Origin: an uncultured Opitutia bacterium
GTDB taxonomy: Bacteria > Verrucomicrobiota > Verrucomicrobiia > Opitutales > UBA953
Direction: 5' to 3'
NCBI GenBank assembly: GCA_903855995.1
Contig: CAIOAN010000003.1
Coordinates: 62,001 to 126,000, forward strand
DNA: 64,000 nt
Part shown: piece by piece, positions 33,436-43,685 of the stretch
Layout of the letters: each line of letters starts with the position of its first letter
Numbering within the stretch: the first letter of the stretch is position 1
Notes under the pieces: model-generated
Databases searched by the model: none
What the model was told of the DNA's origin: nothing
What the model saw: only the letters and a program-made list of their open reading frames with translations
Position numbers and translations under genes: made by a program

Positions 33436-33553
33436 CGGGATGGAGTCAGTCTGCCTCTGTCTCGGGACTTGGCTAGGGGGAAGTAGGCCTAATGCCAGCC
33501 GCTGACCCCATCATGCGTAATCCGAAGCCGGCGGGCCGATCGGGCCGAACACG

Positions 33554-33643
33554 GGGTCAGGCCGTACCCTGACGGTGCCTGAACCGAAAACTAAACATTT
33601 AATGCGTCTTTTGGTTCAGCTTATCAAAGGTACGGCCTGACCC
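33554..33643. repeat. GGGGTCAGGCCG inverted-repeat element, copy 2
   Basis: Terminal repeats GGGTCAGGCCGTACC / GGTACGGCCTGACCC (15 bp, perfect) enclose a second inner inverted repeat, CTGAACC.AAAA / TTTTGGTTCAG. GGGCCGAACAC precedes the left end and GTGTTCGGCCC follows the right end. The 353-base gap 33436-33788 holds no gene. Confidence 0.85.
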
Positions 33644-33788
33644 TTTGGGATGACCCCGGCTAATCCGTGTTCGGCCCCGATCTCGCCTCGGCTCCGCATC
33701 CGGCTCTGAGGCCGTCGCGCTGTCGGTTTCAATCAAGCTACGAAATCAGGACGAAGGTGGCCCCAACTTTCTACCCTTTGTCGGGGTT

Positions 33789-34787: not shown

Positions 34788-34956
34788 GCTTCCGGGCCCG
34801 TCGGGTTGGGGCTAGCACGACATTTCTTGGATAAGCCGGAGAGGGTGAGCTATTCACATCGACGGGTCCAGCGCCCATCCTAGTCAAAGGGCGTTTGCAC
34901 CCCGTCGGAACCAGTCCTAATTATCGGGCTTCCGACCCTCCCCGTGTCGGCACCCC

Positions 34957-35110
34957 ATGAACCCCCTGTCCGCCGCCCTCCTGGTGCTGCTGCTCTCCGC
35001 TTTGGCGGAGGGCCTGCATGCCCGTCGGGTACGCGTCGCCGCTCGGTTGGCCTTTGGCCCCGAGGCAGCCTCCCGCGGGTGGACCATGCTGGCTCCTTTC
35101 CTACGCTGCC
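34957..35110 (+). pseudogene. Truncated N-terminal gene fragment
   Basis: ATG 34957 opens a frame reading MNPLSAALLVLLLSALAEGL then HARRVRVAARLAFGPEA, a hydrophobic membrane segment followed by a basic juxtamembrane part that looks like a genuine protein N-terminus. After about 51 codons it runs into the GGGCCGAACAC border of a repeat element and stops inside it; no continuation is seen on the far side. It is best read as the stump of a gene whose remainder was lost when the element arrived. I cannot name the family securely. Confidence 0.4.
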
Positions 35111-35119
35111 GGGCCGAAC

Positions 35120-35215
35120 ACGGGGTCAGGCCGTTACTCGAGCTAGGCTGATACTAAACACGAAGGATCAGGGCGCTTTTGGTATCAGGAAACTTTGGTA
35201 ACGGCCTGACCCCGT
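35120..35215. repeat. GGGGTCAGGCCG inverted-repeat element, copy 3
   Basis: Eighteen-base perfect terminal repeats (ACGGGGTCAGGCCGTTAC and its complement) and an inner repeat CTGATAC / GTATCAG. In copies 2 and 4 the inner stem is CTGAACC / GGTTCAG, so inner stem bases co-vary between copies. It truncates the gene fragment to its left. Confidence 0.85.
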
Positions 35216-35402
35216 AGATTGAATCCCCGTGTCAACTTGCCCGCATGCCAGCTTGCCCCCTCGAAGGCTCCGCCTTCGCGCCCACATAGGCTTACAATCC
35301 CAGGGGTTTATTCCCATCCGCCGCGCCGGGCAGGGTGGGGTGATGCTAGAACGACAATAGTTACCCGCGGCTGGCGGTTAGCGGTTGGCGGTTAGGCCAC
35401 GC
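35216..35402. repeat. Repeat remnants before the Sel1 gene end
   Basis: Non-coding. It has a TTGCCC..GCCCCCT module abutting a perfect 7-bp hairpin CGAAGGC-TCC-GCCTTCG (35262-35278), and a ggcggttagcggttggcggt tract at about 35373-35397. The gap 34788-35402 otherwise contains only the gene fragment and repeat copy 3. Confidence 0.75.
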
Positions 35403-37132: not shown

Positions 37133-37181
37133 ACTATAACACGATTCCCGTGGCAGCGAGCATCGTTAATCCTGATGCGGG
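37133..37181 (-). promoter_or_regulatory. Shared upstream module with extended -10 (Sel1 gene)
   Basis: These 49 bases match 37700-37748 at all but a few positions. On the minus strand they end in TGTTATAGT, an extended -10 (TGn-TATAGT), with the ATG only about 9 bases beyond it. Transcription would then start at or next to the start codon, giving a leaderless mRNA. Confidence 0.6.
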
Positions 37182-37229
37182 GTATCGGGGGGCTGCCCTC
37201 GTTAGTTCAATGGGACAAGCCTGGCGGGT

Positions 37230-37691
37230 CTACTTCCCTCTCTTGGACGAAGCCCACACAGTGCAGATCACGAGCCCGACGGGGTAAAATATGACGGAAA
37301 AAAAGAGGCAACCAATCCCCCAGCCGCCGGCGTTCCCTTGTTCCGGGGAGAGAAAAAGGGACAGAACTTTGATCACAGCCGACGTAGCAATTACCGCCAA
37401 GAAAGCATAACACACGGTGTATGTGGCGAGCATACTGAGGATACCCAGACAGGATGACCCCTCCGCTTTTTCCGCTGCGTTGTCGGCTTGTTTTTGTTGC
37501 TTTGTAGATTCCTCGTCGAGCGATTCTTCGTCCCTTAATAATTGCCACTCGGGCGACCCTTCATGCCCAGAGTAGAGTTGGTCAGTCGGGAGGATTTTTC
37601 CATCCGCCCAGAGCTTGCTTACCTCTTGGGTGGTATAAACTCCGACTTCTTTCCCGTCGCGGCAGATTTTAATGAGCGGAGTACTATCCAT
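37230..37691 (-). CDS. GYF_2-domain membrane protein
   Basis: A 153-residue protein whose first 55 residues resemble the GYF_2 domain (IKICRDGKEVGVYTTQEVSKLWADGKILPTDQLY, then a W..L ending), a small proline-peptide-binding-like module common in bacterial membrane proteins. A Glu/Lys/Gln-rich linker follows, then two transmembrane helices (about 85-110 and 122-145) and a short basic tail. Function unknown. ATG 37691 is 8 bases after a TATAGT, in an upstream block shared with the Sel1 gene, so the two genes may be co-regulated although each has its own promoter copy. Confidence 0.75.
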   Translation of the reverse strand: MDSTPLIKICRDGKEVGVYTTQEVSKLWADGKILPTDQLYSGHEGSPEWQLLRDEESLDEESTKQQKQADNAAEKAEGSSCLGILSMLATYTVCYAFLAVIATSAVIKVLSLFLSPEQGNAGGWGIGCLFFSVIFYPVGLVICTVWASSKRGK

Positions 37692-37699
37692 CGCATAGG

Positions 37700-37748
37700 A
37701 CTATAACACGTTTCCCGTGCGAGCGAGCATCGTTAATCCTGATGTGGG
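37700..37748 (-). promoter_or_regulatory. Shared upstream module with extended -10 (GYF_2 gene)
   Basis: Second copy of the module at 37133-37181, with the same TGTTATAGT immediately before the gene and the same GATTAACGATGCTCGCT core upstream. The repeat element copies at 37758 onward begin just outside it. Confidence 0.6.
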
Positions 37749-37755
37749 GGGGCCG

Positions 37756-37916
37756 AACACGGGGTCAGGCCGTTACTCGAGCTAGGCTGATACTAAACAC
37801 GAAGGTTCAGGGGGCCGAACACGGGGTCAGGCCGTACCCTGGCTGTGCCTGAACCGAAAACTAAACATTTAATGCTTCTTTTGGTTCAGCTCCTCAAAGG
37901 TACGGCCTGACCCCGT
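37756..37916. repeat. GGGGTCAGGCCG elements: truncated copy plus complete copy 4
   Basis: A left-end fragment (37756-37810), nearly identical to the first half of copy 3, breaks off at GAAGGTTCAG. It is followed at once by a complete element (37821-37916) with perfect 18-bp ends ACGGGGTCAGGCCGTACC and its complement. The order suggests insertion of one element into another with loss of the distal half. The region 37692-37939 has no gene. Confidence 0.85.
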
Positions 37917-37939
37917 GCTTAGGGCGTGCTTTCCTGCCT

Positions 37940-39121
37940 TCAAATCCGGATGAAGACCTTCCGCTTCCAGAGCCACCAGCAGAAGGTCCAGAGGACGGCG
38001 AGGACGAGGAGGCTTTGCATGAGGGGGCCGTACGTGCCTTCGAAGAGGCCGTTGCCGAGCCAGGTCTTGCCGATGCTTCGAATCCAGCCGGCGGTGAGCT
38101 GGTAGGCGAGGTAGATGGCGATGGAGTTCATGCCGACGACGACGAGCGGGAAGGTCCACGCTTTGTGGCCCTTGATGTCGATGAACCAGTAGAAGAGCGC
38201 GAAGACCCAGAGGACGACGGCGCCGCTGTAAAAGGCCCACGAAGGGGTCCAGAGCTTCTTGATGACGGGGCAGATCGTGGTGCCGGTAACGAGCGCGAGG
38301 ATGAGGCAGAGCGCGCCTGCAATCAGAAGCCAGTTCAGTTTAGCCCCGGAGGTCTTTTCGGAGCGCAGGTTCTCGCCGGCCATGAGCCCGAGAATCATGG
38401 TGATGAGCGAGGGCACGAAGTTGAGGGTCTGGTAGCCGCCTTTGTCGAAGACGAAAGGGGTCTCGCGCAGGAAGAGGTTCAGGAACCATTGGTCGCAGGT
38501 GGCCGCGAAGTTGGCGTTCATGTTCCAGTGCCCCCAGAAGCCGCTGAGGACCTGGCCGGGGTCGGTCACGCCGAGGGCTTTGTAATCGGTGGCTGGCCCG
38601 GCGATGGGGGTGAGCGCGAACGCGGCCCAGGTGGCGACGGCGATGACGCCGATGGCGCCGAGCTGTACCTTCCAGCCCCGCCCGACGAGCAGGGTGAGGA
38701 AGACGTACCCGAGCCCGATCTGGGCGAGGACGTTGTGGAAGCCGAAGACGGGCTGCTTGCCGGTACCGGTGGTCAGGAAGACGCCGAGGGCGACGAGCAC
38801 AAACGCACGCCAGAAGGTGTGCAGAAAAAGCTTCCGCTGGTCCTGGCCTTCGGCGGAGCGGCGCGACGACGAGAACGGCAACGCCATGCCGACCATGAAC
38901 ATGAACGAGGGCTGGATCATATCCCACGCCCCGCCGCCGATCCACGCGGCATGCGAGGTGTTGTAACGCAGCAGCTCCCAGAAGCCCGAATCCGGATGCG
39001 CCTTCGCGATCTGCGCGATGCCGAAGCCCGACGACGCCATGAACAGCATCGTGAGGCCGCGGAAGGCATCCAGTGAGACCAAGCGTTCGGGTAGGGTCGT
39101 GGAGCCAGAGGGGGTGCTCAT
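37940..39121 (-). CDS. NagX-like/DUF5009 membrane acyltransferase
   Basis: A 393-residue polytopic membrane protein starting MSTPSGSTTLPERLVSLDAFRGLTM. The RLVSLDAFRGLTM motif and the following helices with SFMFMVGMALPFS belong to the heparan-alpha-glucosaminide N-acetyltransferase-like (NagX/DUF5009) family, which transfers acetyl groups to amino sugars across the membrane. About ten transmembrane segments are visible. A longer open frame exists upstream but is built from repeat sequence (TTGCCC..GCCCCCT module), so ATG 39121 is preferred. A 7-bp hairpin (39123-39139) lies directly upstream of the ATG. The acceptor sugar is unknown. Confidence 0.85.
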   Translation of the reverse strand: MSTPSGSTTLPERLVSLDAFRGLTMLFMASSGFGIAQIAKAHPDSGFWELLRYNTSHAAWIGGGAWDMIQPSFMFMVGMALPFSSSRRSAEGQDQRKLFLHTFWRAFVLVALGVFLTTGTGKQPVFGFHNVLAQIGLGYVFLTLLVGRGWKVQLGAIGVIAVATWAAFALTPIAGPATDYKALGVTDPGQVLSGFWGHWNMNANFAATCDQWFLNLFLRETPFVFDKGGYQTLNFVPSLITMILGLMAGENLRSEKTSGAKLNWLLIAGALCLILALVTGTTICPVIKKLWTPSWAFYSGAVVLWVFALFYWFIDIKGHKAWTFPLVVVGMNSIAIYLAYQLTAGWIRSIGKTWLGNGLFEGTYGPLMQSLLVLAVLWTFCWWLWKRKVFIRI

Positions 39122-39240
39122 GGCGGCGAGAATCGCCGCTAGGGGGCAAGTTGGCAAGGGAACACGGTGACACGGGGTACTAGCGGTTAGCGGTTGGGGA
39201 GATGCAAGAGGCAAGGGGAGGCCGGAATGTTTGCTTGGAC
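39122..39240. repeat. Hairpin and repeat modules upstream of the acyltransferase gene
   Basis: GCGGCGA-GAA-TCGCCGC (39123-39139) touches the acyltransferase ATG. A reversed GCCCCCT/TTGCC module follows (39141-39178), then a tagcggttagcggttgggga tract. No gene. Confidence 0.7.
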
Positions 39241-39334
39241 ATTGGGTAGGGCGGGCTCTCCGAGCCCGCCGTTGAACCAGAGGAGGTTCGGATTTCCTGC
39301 GGCGAACGGACGGCTCAGAGAGCCGTCCCTACCT
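39241..39334. repeat. 94-bp composite repeat, left copy
   Basis: Identical over 94 bases to 40138-40231, in direct orientation, 897 bases apart. It carries GGTAGGG, hairpin CGGGCTC-TCC-GAGCCCG, a 40-base middle, hairpin ACGGCTC-AGA-GAGCCGT and CCCTACC. Its right end supplies the stop codon of the PIN gene. Confidence 0.95.
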
Positions 39335-39739
39335 GCTGCGTTCCCTCAGGAACTCCCCTGGGGTTCGGATGGACAGGCCGTAGACAGATGAACCGAGGAG
39401 GTCGTGGAAGTCATCGCGGTCGAGGGTCAGGAGGACGTCGGACTTTAGGCTTAAAGCGGTAATGATGACGGGCCGATCTTTCACGGCTCGATAGATGAGT
39501 GGTCGGTCCAAGACCAGATGGGTCCCGACTATGGTCAGCCTAGGCTTGATGAGTCGGTGCCAGTCGACTGCGCCTTTCGGGCTGAGCTTCGGAAGGTTAT
39601 GCTCGGCTTCACGCACGCAGTAGGCCGATGTCAGCAGGATCCAACCTCCGCGCTTTGCCGACATAATCAGCAGACGCGATGCACCTGACGTAGAACCGGC
39701 TGCGGCCAGTAATACGCTCGAATCTAAGAACAGCCTCAC
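39329..39739 (-). CDS. PIN-domain toxin (VapC-like ribonuclease)
   Basis: A 136-residue PIN protein, the likely toxin of a type II pair. Acidic metal-site residues are in place: D6 (LFLDSSVLL), E44 (CVREAEHNL), D88 (VKDRPVIITAL) and D107 (LLTLDRDDFHDL). The start is GTG 39739, overlapping the antitoxin stop; longer in-frame starts duplicate the antitoxin region. The stop TAG is formed by the GGTAGGG end of the 94-bp repeat (…ERSR then stop), so the natural C-terminus may have been altered by the repeat. RNA cleavage is the usual activity of the family; the target is unknown. Confidence 0.85.
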   Translation of the reverse strand: MRLFLDSSVLLAAAGSTSGASRLLIMSAKRGGWILLTSAYCVREAEHNLPKLSPKGAVDWHRLIKPRLTIVGTHLVLDRPLIYRAVKDRPVIITALSLKSDVLLTLDRDDFHDLLGSSVYGLSIRTPGEFLRERSR

Positions 39740-39981
39740 TTCTTCCGGCGGAAGGCTTTGAGCTCTTTGGCGTCGGCCTCGTCGTTGAGTACCCACTGAC
39801 GAATGGTCGCCTTAGGGATGTCGCGGATGGGCATGGCCACTGCCGACTGTAGGAAGAGTCCGCCATCGCGTTCTTCGATGATGACCAGTGGCGAGGCGAC
39901 CTGATCGAGTTTCAACCTGCGGCGAAGCTCCGGAGGTAGGGTCAGCGTGCCGCGCTTGCTGATGGGCAGGGTGTAAGTCAT
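39736..39981 (-). CDS. AbrB/MazE-type antitoxin
   Basis: An 81-residue protein starting MTYTLPISKRGTLTLPPELRRRLKL, the swapped-hairpin SpoVT/AbrB DNA-binding fold. The C-terminal part (RDIPKATIRQWVLNDEADAKELKAFRRKK) would bind and neutralise the PIN toxin. It is the first gene of the pair, with a 4-base overlap to the toxin, as usual for VapBC-like modules. The antitoxin probably autoregulates the operon; an inverted repeat GTATTGCCGTAATAC lies just upstream at about 39991-40005 and is a plausible operator. Confidence 0.85.
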   Translation of the reverse strand: MTYTLPISKRGTLTLPPELRRRLKLDQVASPLVIIEERDGGLFLQSAVAMPIRDIPKATIRQWVLNDEADAKELKAFRRKK

Positions 39982-39990
39982 GCCGTAATG

Positions 39991-40005
39991 CTGTATTGCC
40001 GTAAT
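39991..40005. promoter_or_regulatory. Candidate antitoxin operator
   Basis: GTATT-GCCGT-AATAC is a short inverted repeat about 10 bases upstream of the antitoxin ATG and is followed by a related ACGGTAT half. Position and symmetry fit autoregulation by the AbrB-type antitoxin. Confidence 0.45.
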
Positions 40006-40137
40006 ACGGTATCAAGAGGGAAGAGACCTCAGGCGAATAAGGGGCCTTCGCGGGGGGGGCACGGTGACAAGTGGGCAAGTGGGCACGGGGAAGGGCTCAA
40101 GGGCTAGACTGGACAACCGGATAGGATGCTGCGGTGT

Positions 40138-40231
40138 ATTGGGTAGGGCGGGCTCTCCGAGCCCGCCGTTGAACCAGAGGAGGTTCGGATTTCCTGCGGC
40201 GAACGGACGGCTCAGAGAGCCGTCCCTACCT
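40138..40231. repeat. 94-bp composite repeat, right copy
   Basis: Perfect copy of 39241-39334. The two copies bracket the whole toxin-antitoxin pair and its promoter. Confidence 0.95.
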
Positions 40232-40474
40232 AAAGAACCCCCCCACCAATTATCCGGTCTCCGGTTTCCCTTTGAGAATTTGGCTATGTGTGTTTCCTGC
40301 CACCCGCCACCCGGGGCTGCCACCTGCCACCCGAGAATGGAAACTCTATGTCGGCACGCAGTGCCGACCCTACCTGTTGTCTCTTCTAGTCAACTGAGCC
40401 TCCGGGCCTCTTCATGCGCCCCTTGTCACCGTGTCAACTTGCCCACGTGTCACCACTCAAGGCCGTAAGGCCTT
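40232..40474. repeat. Repeat array and stop-codon hairpin at the phrB end
   Basis: Module order from left to right: ATCCGGTCTCCGGTTTCCC (about 40249-40270), GGTGGC-type block (40297-40337), half GGTAGGG unit with perfect stem GTCGGCAC-GCA-GTGCCGAC (40350-40374), gagcctccgggcctc module (about 40397-40411), TTGCCCACGTG module (about 40437-40456), then hairpin AAGGCC-GTAA-GGCCTT (40459-40474) that touches the phrB stop. No gene. Confidence 0.85.
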
Positions 40475-41884
40475 AAGCGCCTTCAACGCTCGATCACGGC
40501 CCTCAGTCAGTCCAATCAGCGGCACGGGATAATCCTTGCCGAGTTTGATGCCGGCTTCGGCGAGCACATGCATAGGTGCTTCCCAGGGCTTGTGAATCCA
40601 TTCGGCGGGGAGCTTGGCGAGTTCAGGCACCCAGCGGCGCACGTAGTCGCCATCGGGGTCGAACTTCTCACCTTGGAGGACGGGATTGAAGACGCGGAAA
40701 TACGGAGCGGCGTCGGCACCACAACCGCCGGCCCACTGCCAGCCCATGGTATTCGCACCGAGGTCGGCGTCGACGAGCGTATCCCAATACCACTTGGCGC
40801 CTTCGTTCCACGGTTGGAGGAGATGCTTCACGAGCACGGAGGCGGCGATCATACGCACGCGGTTATGCTGCCAGCCAGTCTGCCAGAGCTGACGCATCCC
40901 GGCGTCGACGATCGGGTAGCCGGTCCGACCGACCTGCCACGCGCGCAGGAGCTTCTTGTCCGGCGCCCAGGGGAATTTTTCGAACTCCCTGCGCAGCGGA
41001 CGATCCGGGGTCTCGGGGAAGTGATGGATGAGGTGCTGGGAGAATTCACGCCAGCCGACTTCGGCTACGTATTTGTCGCCACCCTTCACGCCGAGGTGTC
41101 CGGCGGTGCGCACGGCGTCGACGATCTCGAGCGGTGAAATCTGACCGAAGTGTAGGTAGGGCGAAAGGCGCGAGGTGCCGTCGAGCTTGGGGATGTCGCG
41201 GTTGGTCGGATAATCTTTCACCGGGGCGGCCACGAAATCCTTCAGGCGCTTCTCAGCGCCTTTACGCGTCGGGTCCCAGGCGGCCGGGAACTCGCTGTCC
41301 CATTTGATCTTCGGGAGGAGGCCGAGCTTCGCGACCGCGACGGACTTCAGGGGCTTTTCAAGAGGCGTGAGTTTCTTCGGGGCCTTGAGGGGGATGCCAA
41401 ACTTAAGGTTCGCGAGGCAGTTCTTCCAGAAGGGCGTGAAGACCTGGAAGGGATTGCCGGCTAGGGTCTTTACGGTGTGCGGCTCGTGGAGGAGGTTGCC
41501 GTTGAACGACTCGGCTTTGAGACCCGCGTTGCGCAGCGAGGTCTTCACCTGCGTATCGCGCTCAATGATCAGGGGCTCATGGCGACGATTCCAGGTGACG
41601 AGTCCGGCGCCGGTCTCTTTCACGAGCTGTTTGAGTTCCGCGAGCGAGTCGCCGGTGCGGATGACGAGCGGGGAGCCGACTTTTTCAAACTGCTCGGCGA
41701 GATCTTCGAGTGCGTAGTGCAGCCACCAGTTCGAAGCGCCGCCGGGCTGCCAATGTCCTTCGGCCTCGGGGTCGTGGATGAAGACCGGGATGACCGGGCC
41801 ACCATGCTTCACCGCCGCTTCGAGCGACGGGTTGTCAGCGAGTCGAAGGTCCAGGCGAAGCCAGACGATGGCAGGGGTGGGCAT
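40457..41884 (-). CDS. phrB: Deoxyribodipyrimidine photolyase
   Basis: A 475-residue flavoprotein of the class I CPD photolyase group that repairs UV dimers with light. The N-terminal antenna domain begins AIVWLRLDLRLADNPSLEAA. The FAD-binding domain shows GTSRLSPYLHFGQISP, VGWREFSQHLIHHFPET, RAWQVGRTGYPIVDAGMRQLWQTGWQHNRVRMIAAS, DADLGANTMGWQWAGGCGADAAPYFRVFNP. Conserved tryptophans of the electron path are present, so it should be active. Length is normal. Its 3' end is fused to a repeat array through a hairpin, with the TGA directly after the stem. Confidence 0.93.
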   Translation of the reverse strand: MPTPAIVWLRLDLRLADNPSLEAAVKHGGPVIPVFIHDPEAEGHWQPGGASNWWLHYALEDLAEQFEKVGSPLVIRTGDSLAELKQLVKETGAGLVTWNRRHEPLIIERDTQVKTSLRNAGLKAESFNGNLLHEPHTVKTLAGNPFQVFTPFWKNCLANLKFGIPLKAPKKLTPLEKPLKSVAVAKLGLLPKIKWDSEFPAAWDPTRKGAEKRLKDFVAAPVKDYPTNRDIPKLDGTSRLSPYLHFGQISPLEIVDAVRTAGHLGVKGGDKYVAEVGWREFSQHLIHHFPETPDRPLRREFEKFPWAPDKKLLRAWQVGRTGYPIVDAGMRQLWQTGWQHNRVRMIAASVLVKHLLQPWNEGAKWYWDTLVDADLGANTMGWQWAGGCGADAAPYFRVFNPVLQGEKFDPDGDYVRRWVPELAKLPAEWIHKPWEAPMHVLAEAGIKLGKDYPVPLIGLTEGRDRALKALKALRP

Positions 41885-41905
41885 GGCGTGAACCTAACAG
41901 CAGAG

Positions 41906-42298
41906 AGGAAGAGTGCAAATGTGAGAACCGAATAGGGGTGGGGGTGGGGGTAGGGGTAGTGAGCAGCCGTGCAAAAGTGCAAATCGGAGTGATGCTCCTG
42001 TGCAAAGGTGCAAAAGTGAGAGACTCGTTTCAGGTGGCGGGTGGCAGCCCCGGGTGGCAGGTGGCAGGCCCCCGGACCTGTACCTCAAGACCTGAGACCT
42101 GAGAGTGTATTCCTGCCACCTGCCACCCGAGAATGGGTGCTCTATGTCGTGACGCAGTCGTGCCCCTACCCGAGGCAGCGCTGCGTTTTCTGAGCCTCCG
42201 AGCCTCTGGTCAACTGAGCCTCTTGGATTCCCCCATGTCCACGTGTCACCTTGCCCACGTGCCCCCTCTCGCTTGGTAAGCGTCGCGCTTACCAAGCG
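41906..42298. repeat. Repeat array and 13-bp stop-codon hairpin at the M42 peptidase end
   Basis: From left to right: a GTGCAAA tract with GGGGTGGGGGTAGGGG (41910-41958), the block shared with 43462-43549 (41979-42066, including an inverted GGTGGC block), a second GGTGGC block (42112-42133), a decayed half GGTAGGG unit (42144-42170), a gcctccgagcctctggtcaa module (about 42193-42215), a TTGCCCACGTGCCCCCT module (42251-42267) and the perfect stem CGCTTGGTAAGCG / CGCTTACCAAGCG (42270-42282, 42286-42298) with a 3-base loop. The right arm holds the gene's last codons and TAA. No gene in the gap. Confidence 0.9.
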
Positions 42299-43371: not shown

Positions 43372-43405
43372 AAGAGAGTTCTACCTGTCCGGGACGGAAA
43401 GTCGA

Positions 43406-43684
43406 GCGAAGGCAAAGCCTTCGCCGGGGGGCATGTAAGCGGGGTGTGTAAGTGCAAAAGCGCAAATCGGAGCCTTGCTCCTGTGCAAAGGTGCAAAGGT
43501 GAGAGACTCGTTTCAGGTGGCGGGTGGCGGCCCCGGGTGGCAGGTGGCGGGAGATGCCCTGCGCCTGATTCCTGATGCACGATGCCTGCCACCCGAGAAT
43601 GTCTTTCCTGCCACCTGCCACCTGGGGCTGCCACCTGCCACCCGGAGCGACTGTACTAGGACAGCACTTGGTGCTGCCCCTACC
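43406..43684. repeat. Repeat array between the M42 peptidase and the reductase-rhodanese gene
   Basis: Contains a perfect 8-bp hairpin GCGAAGGC-AAA-GCCTTCGC (43406-43424), the block shared with the previous array (43462-43549), GGTGGC-type blocks (43511-43551 and 43586-43656) and a half GGTAGGG unit CAGCAC-TTG-GTGCTG-CCCCTACC (43662-43684). The half unit ends 1 base before the stop codon of the next gene. No gene. Confidence 0.85.
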
Positions 43685-43685
43685 T

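Follow-up and report, generated by a model that had tools for sequence, protein, structure and literature searches.

In IS26 translocatable units, a gene is bracketed by direct repeats and has the potential to form a circle that carries one copy of the repeat. In the minimal mobile elements of Neisseria, a variable cargo is found between two conserved genes, and the intergenic DNA contains mosaic repeats.

The repeats described in the present work belong to a different class, the "REPINs", which are dimers of GTAG-type REP sequences that accompany RAYT genes. They consist of two palindromic REP units with GTAG facing outward, measure 50-130 bp, lie mostly between genes, and form several families per genome, with REPINs adjoining the RAYT genes (PMC3116915, PMC3733652). 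It has already been reported that Opitutus terrae, a Verrucomicrobium, is rich in GTAG REPs and that the ends of REPs often provide the TAG stop codon of neighbouring genes (PMC3733652). The passages of PMC3116915 that bear on spacing describe tandem REPIN clusters with their flanks and, in P. fluorescens, no departure from a random spacing beyond 200 bp; copies that bracket a gene are not described in those passages. PMC12306157 reports that in E. coli translation is lowered by REPs located less than 16 nt from a stop codon.

The locus considered here lies in a stretch of 64,000 nucleotides, referred to below as the window, from the genome of a freshwater Opitutae bacterium; the relatives with which it is compared are likewise freshwater Opitutae (as judged for "freshwater" from lake names), and their contigs come mostly from draft metagenome bins. 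It resembles the IS26 units in that a gene pair is bracketed by direct repeats, but the repeats are 94 bp long and non-coding, and they are not retained with the cargo from one locus to the next. It resembles the Neisseria elements in its repeat-rich intergenic DNA and in that the gap between phrB and an acyltransferase-like gene is a site of variable cargo, which may hold nothing, the gene pair, or a peptidase-like gene (G024) (loci L056, L058, L063 and L071); unlike those elements, it shows no evidence of uptake sequences or transformation, and its repeats are GTAG REPINs. It differs from the REPINs summarized above in that neighbouring gaps separated by whole genes share copies in the same orientation.

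Results

The repeat pair and its surroundings

The initial annotation reported two identical 94-bp repeats in the same orientation, 897 bases apart, and sequence comparison bears this out: positions 39241..39334 and 40138..40231 (both on the + strand) are 100% identical over 94 nt and directly repeated, with a start-to-start spacing of 897. Copy 1 lies on the side of a gene for a PIN-domain protein and has its core, GGTAGGG...CCCTACC, at 39245-39333, and copy 2 lies on the phrB side with its core at 40142-40230. Between them are the PIN open reading frame, an AbrB/MazE-like open reading frame, and about 157 bp upstream of the latter. The annotation's further statement that only the AbrB/PIN operon lies between the repeats is right in that no other gene is enclosed, but the operon reaches into the left repeat, whose final bases are the stop codon of the PIN gene (TAG, - strand, 39331-39329).

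The flanking genes, both on the - strand, encode an acyltransferase-like membrane protein with weak similarity to NagX (37940..39214; NCBIfam NF046061, E=1.4e-31, below its cut-off) and the DNA photolyase PhrB (phrB, 40457..41884). A single REP unit of another family (D2), GGTAGGGTCGGCACTGCGTGCCG, is present at 40352..40374 on the - strand. The surrounding DNA also contains an exact 26-bp direct repeat whose copies are 62 bp apart (37748-37773 and 37810-37835), and short intergenic modules that occur in both orientations, GTGGGCAAGTTGACACGGTGACAAGGGG, AGCATCCTATCCGGTTTCCGGTCTCCCTTTGAG and TTTGCACCTTTGCACAGG (40055-40091, 40426-40454 and 39142-39177, as well as many gaps in relatives). An Rfam scan of the window gave no match.

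The repeats as members of a REPIN family

Each 94-bp repeat is a REPIN, that is, a head-to-head dimer of GTAG-type REP hairpins. Its sequence and predicted fold resolve it into GGTAGGG, two hairpins separated by a spacer, and CCCTACC, so that two palindromic REP units stand in inverted orientation with GTAG at the outer ends. In copy 1, the first unit comprises GGTAGGG and the hairpin GGGCTC-TCC-GAGCCC (39245..39270, + strand), and the second, GGTAGGGACGGCTCTCTGAGCCGTCC, faces it with GTAG outward (39307..39333, - strand). Folding of the 94-mer as a single strand gives z = -4.4.

Like other REPINs, these elements are high in copy number, mainly extragenic, and divided into several families per genome. 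The 94-mer has 35 matches in its own genome at E<=0.001, among which only the two window copies are identical and the next best reach 84-85%; the repeats are therefore members of a dispersed, genome-wide family rather than a private pair, and the identity of these two copies is beyond chance. The family also has matches in many genomes of the same genus. The generic pattern GGTAGGG N30-59 CCCTACC occurs at 50 sites in the own genome, against 0 for the reversed control, and these sites fall into several sequence families.

The genome carries RAYT-like genes (Y1 HUH transposases), two of them with REPINs close on either side. There is one Y1_Tnp match over the cut-off (C10:43114), with two more below it. 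The open reading frame at C10 has identical 56-bp REPINs of another family directly on either side (42872 and 43516) and a half-copy of the window-repeat family about 1.3 kb away; that at C13:144604 has REPINs close by on both sides, and close to that at C13:102391 no REPIN was found. Across 37 genomes of the genus, the number of Y1 matches correlates with the number of copies of the window-repeat family (Spearman 0.57, p=0.0002), draft quality being a factor that affects both counts.

The AbrB/PIN gene pair

The PIN-domain protein (136 aa, 39329..39739, - strand) is a probable VapC-like toxin, with a PIN_3 match of E=1.4e-4 and 23.1 bits that lies below the 27-bit cut-off, and the AbrB/MazE-like protein (81 aa, 39736..39981, - strand) is a probable antitoxin, with a MazE_antitoxin match of E=0.0042, also below the cut-off, and a weak SpoVT match. 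The GTG start of the PIN gene overlaps the TGA stop of the AbrB gene (39739), and this overlap and the gene order are kept in 11 loci of the genus. Since both domain matches fall below curated cut-offs, the term "toxin-antitoxin" is drawn from the gene order, the TGA/GTG overlap and the weak domains taken together, and on these grounds the pair is a putative VapBC-like module. Sequence searches against solved structures returned weak SpoVT matches for the AbrB-like protein; for the PIN protein they yielded no homologue of use. The segment immediately upstream of the AbrB gene (39982..40015, - strand), which contains repeated TTACGGC and is present in related loci, is a possible autoregulatory operator.

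Against six relatives, dN is 0.011-0.054 for the AbrB-like protein and 0.049-0.28 for the PIN protein, so that conservation is much stronger in the former. Compared with the pair in G027, identity is patchy, ranging from 75 to 100% in 60-bp windows, which suggests mosaic exchange.

The PIN gene and the repeat meet at the stop codon: the TAG within AGGTAGGG, at the end of the PIN-side REPIN, terminates the gene. The gene ends in AGG-TAG in 9 of the 11 genus loci, eight of which run directly into a REPIN end and one (G009) into a degraded one, and at least 4 different REPIN bodies are found at this position. By comparison, among 676 genes from three genomes, each coding for 100 aa or more, only 4 have an AGG-TAG ending. 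A genome-wide excess of REP termini acting as in-frame stops was considered and rejected, as termini in long open frames are not commoner in frame than in the other frames; the placement at the stop codon is consequently notable for the PIN gene and not for the genome. Either an old REPIN has stayed at the PIN stop through repeated exchanges of its body, or a REPIN at this position is favoured.

The pair and its flanks in related genomes

The pair lies between phrB and the acyltransferase gene in the window genome (G000), in G027 and in L091. In G029, G012 and L093 it is on the opposite side of phrB, in the gap next to an M42 peptidase gene, where its boundaries are REPINs of other types and the window repeat is missing. 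A further locus is common to G001 and G014 and lies, in G001, between a Gfo/Idh gene and a membrane-protein gene; still others exist elsewhere in the genus.

The two relatives that share the insertion site of the window carry different elements on its two sides. On the PIN side, G027 has a REPIN of the window type that is 95% identical, with 5/94 differences from copy 1, and L091 has the same type. On the phrB side, both have another REPIN type (GGTAGGGGCGCGACTGCG...), whose downstream flank, AGCATCCTATCCGGTTGTCCAG, is shared with the window. Copy 1 and copy 2 show 0/94 differences. Because G027 and L091 have the same insertion without the bracket, the contrast between 0/94 and 5/94 implies that the two copies came to be identical after the pair had been inserted. 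The occupation of the phrB side by a different REPIN type in relatives supports a suggestion made in the initial annotation as an alternative, namely that the repeat had been copied to both sides.

The annotation had also raised the idea that the pair behaves as a cassette whose excision would leave one repeat at the empty site. Vacant phrB-acyltransferase junctions do exist, in G001, G004, G023 and G033, but none contains a match to the window repeat, and at other occupied sites the terminal repeats differ or are absent. The vacant G021 site, which corresponds to the locus occupied in G001, comes closer to this expectation, as a tail present on both sides of the pair in G001 occurs there once. 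The two window repeats could physically recombine and delete the pair; nothing in the data shows that this has occurred.

Direct repeats bracket the pair in 4 of the 11 genus loci, those of G000, G001 (151 bp), G009 (251 bp) and L096 (58 bp), and bracket about 3 of 41 other short blocks, which we estimate, rather than compute, to be a modest enrichment. In G027, L091, G029, G012, L093 and L099 the pair is not bracketed by one and the same element, and in G014 the stretch between the copies of a 236-bp repeat comprises the pair and the next gene. In the region around 3500-4700 of L101, which belongs to a distant bin of the Verrucomicrobia, 123-bp direct repeats of 95% identity flank a related PIN gene and take in the end of the upstream neighbour, which reads as ispF-like from its sequence. 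Given the brackets in G001, G009, L096 and L101 and the single tail in G021, the flank may have been duplicated at insertion at these other loci, and a looser link between insertion of the pair and flank duplication is compatible with them.

Same-orientation copies in neighbouring gaps

Every intergenic region in 1.16 Mb of sequence from the genus was compared with every other within the same genome, and matches of at least 80 bits were retained; the intergenic pairs so obtained are not independent of one another. Regions less than 0.7 kb apart gave 7 direct matches in 47 pairs (15%) and 0 inverted, a bin that is biased because 4 of the 7 direct cases are toxin-antitoxin loci selected on purpose, without which the count is 3 in about 41. 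At 0.7-1.5 kb there were 6 direct matches in 92 pairs (6.5%) and 0 inverted, at 1.5-3 kb 9 direct (6.6%) and 1 inverted (0.7%) in 136, and at 3-6 kb 11 direct (4.5%) and 2 inverted (0.8%) in 243, so that within 6 kb the totals are 33 direct vs 3 inverted. Up to 40 kb, the rates are about 1.2% direct and 0-0.3% inverted, with a weak direct bias persisting at 15-40 kb (14 vs 4). Between contigs the two orientations are at parity, with 26 direct and 22 inverted matches among 13582 pairs (0.2% each). An earlier, partly overlapping sample evaluated at 90 bits had given 20 direct and 2 inverted matches in 504 neighbouring pairs, and 14 and 12 in 7686 distant ones. In two control genomes of the same order, 331 neighbouring pairs contained 0 direct matches at >=90 bits.

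Same-direction copies in neighbouring gaps are thus a property of the genus, and they are found around core genes as well. One example is the M42 peptidase gene, whose position next to phrB is constant among the relatives examined. In the window it is bracketed by direct repeats of 171 bp at 82% (within 41885-42288 and 43372-43685), and in L053 (G030) by repeats of 183 bp at 84%. Further gap copies in the same orientation surround nearby genes of the window (33436-33788, 34788-35402 and 37134-37939; 102 bp at 95% and 66 bp at 97%).

Two candidate causes of the bias were set aside. Orientation relative to transcription was one, as gaps whose flanking genes are arranged in opposite ways share direct copies too. 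Replication-strand orientation was rejected as the main cause, since families on C13 flip between about 95 and 144 kb while the GC skew is negative except in one 10-kb bin. Local, orientation-preserving copying is the simplest reading of the direct bias; the excess at 15-40 kb counts against it to some degree, as pure neighbour-to-neighbour copying need not predict a bias at that range.

Discussion

Origin of the twin repeats

The twin repeats were probably produced by a recent local copying or conversion of a REPIN that preserved its orientation. Under this interpretation, copy 1, which abuts and ends the PIN gene and is common to G027, would be the older at the locus, and copy 2 would be a recent addition in the window lineage, copied or converted from the neighbouring site at a place where relatives hold an unrelated REPIN. 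The direction from the PIN side to the phrB side would follow from the choice of copy 1 as donor, for which the two relatives G027 and L091 provide the basis. Mechanistically, replication forks stalling on the hairpins may have led to a template switch or a gene conversion, with the shared GGTAGGG and CCCTACC ends serving as homology. Since neighbouring gaps often gain same-direction copies, a gene pair can end up between direct repeats that do not make it a cassette, and the bracket described here does not define a mobile unit.

The presence of the pair at several loci of the genus, on either side of phrB, in the Gfo/Idh-membrane-protein gap of G001 and elsewhere, would be expected if a unit of repeat, pair and repeat were excised through its direct repeats, leaving one behind, and re-entered other REPINs by homologous recombination in the manner of IS26 units, and the different direct repeats in G001, G009 and L096 and the single tail in G021 agree with such a cycle. 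We nevertheless regard it as improbable, given that the vacant phrB-acyltransferase sites are without the window repeat, that six occupied loci are not bracketed by one same element, and that core genes are bracketed as well. The same brackets, together with that of the distant L101 and with the G021 tail, would also fit a process in which insertion of the pair duplicates 0.1-0.25 kb of its target, the 94-bp repeats being one such duplication; this is very unlikely for the 94-bp repeats, because the insertion is shared with two relatives that have no bracket and the 94-bp identity is younger. The loci of G029, G012, L093 and L099 show no such bracket, and the vacant sites of the more distant G001 and G004 have no copy of the window REPIN.

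An origin in two ordinary RAYT-driven insertions, of which the second landed by chance beside its parent, draws on the RAYT-like genes of the genome, the GTAG at the REPIN ends, and the correlation of Y1 matches with copy number. It does not account for the fact that near copies are almost all direct while far copies have no orientation preference, the second site is also occupied by a REPIN in G027 and L091, and on C13 the skew is mostly of one sign while the family orientation changes, which makes strand-specific insertion alone insufficient; we consider it as doubtful as excision and re-entry of the pair. That the repeat was created by assembly is conceivable in a draft metagenome, where exact repeats are hard to assemble, and is the most remote of these explanations, for the genome consists of 13 contigs and the window lies within one of 182 kb, usual reads are longer than 94 bp, and the flanks of the two copies differ.

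Implications for REPIN-rich genomes

A broader interpretation, in which short-range orientation-preserving copying, probably seeded at the fork by REPIN hairpins, rewrites the gaps and small pairs such as AbrB/PIN make use of the resulting brackets to move, is rather unlikely as a whole, and is offered as a speculation. The practical consequence of the present analysis is that a bracket of direct repeats round an accessory pair need not mean a mobile cassette, as neighbouring REPIN-rich gaps gain same-direction copies in any case. The decay of direct similarity with distance, together with the near absence of inverted neighbours, provides a concrete signature of the rewriting of REPIN-rich gaps. 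The position of a REPIN exactly at the toxin stop codon in most relatives raises the question of whether toxin synthesis is dampened, and in view of the effect of REPs near stop codons in E. coli (PMC12306157), it is a reasonable hypothesis that the REPIN at the PIN stop may have this role.
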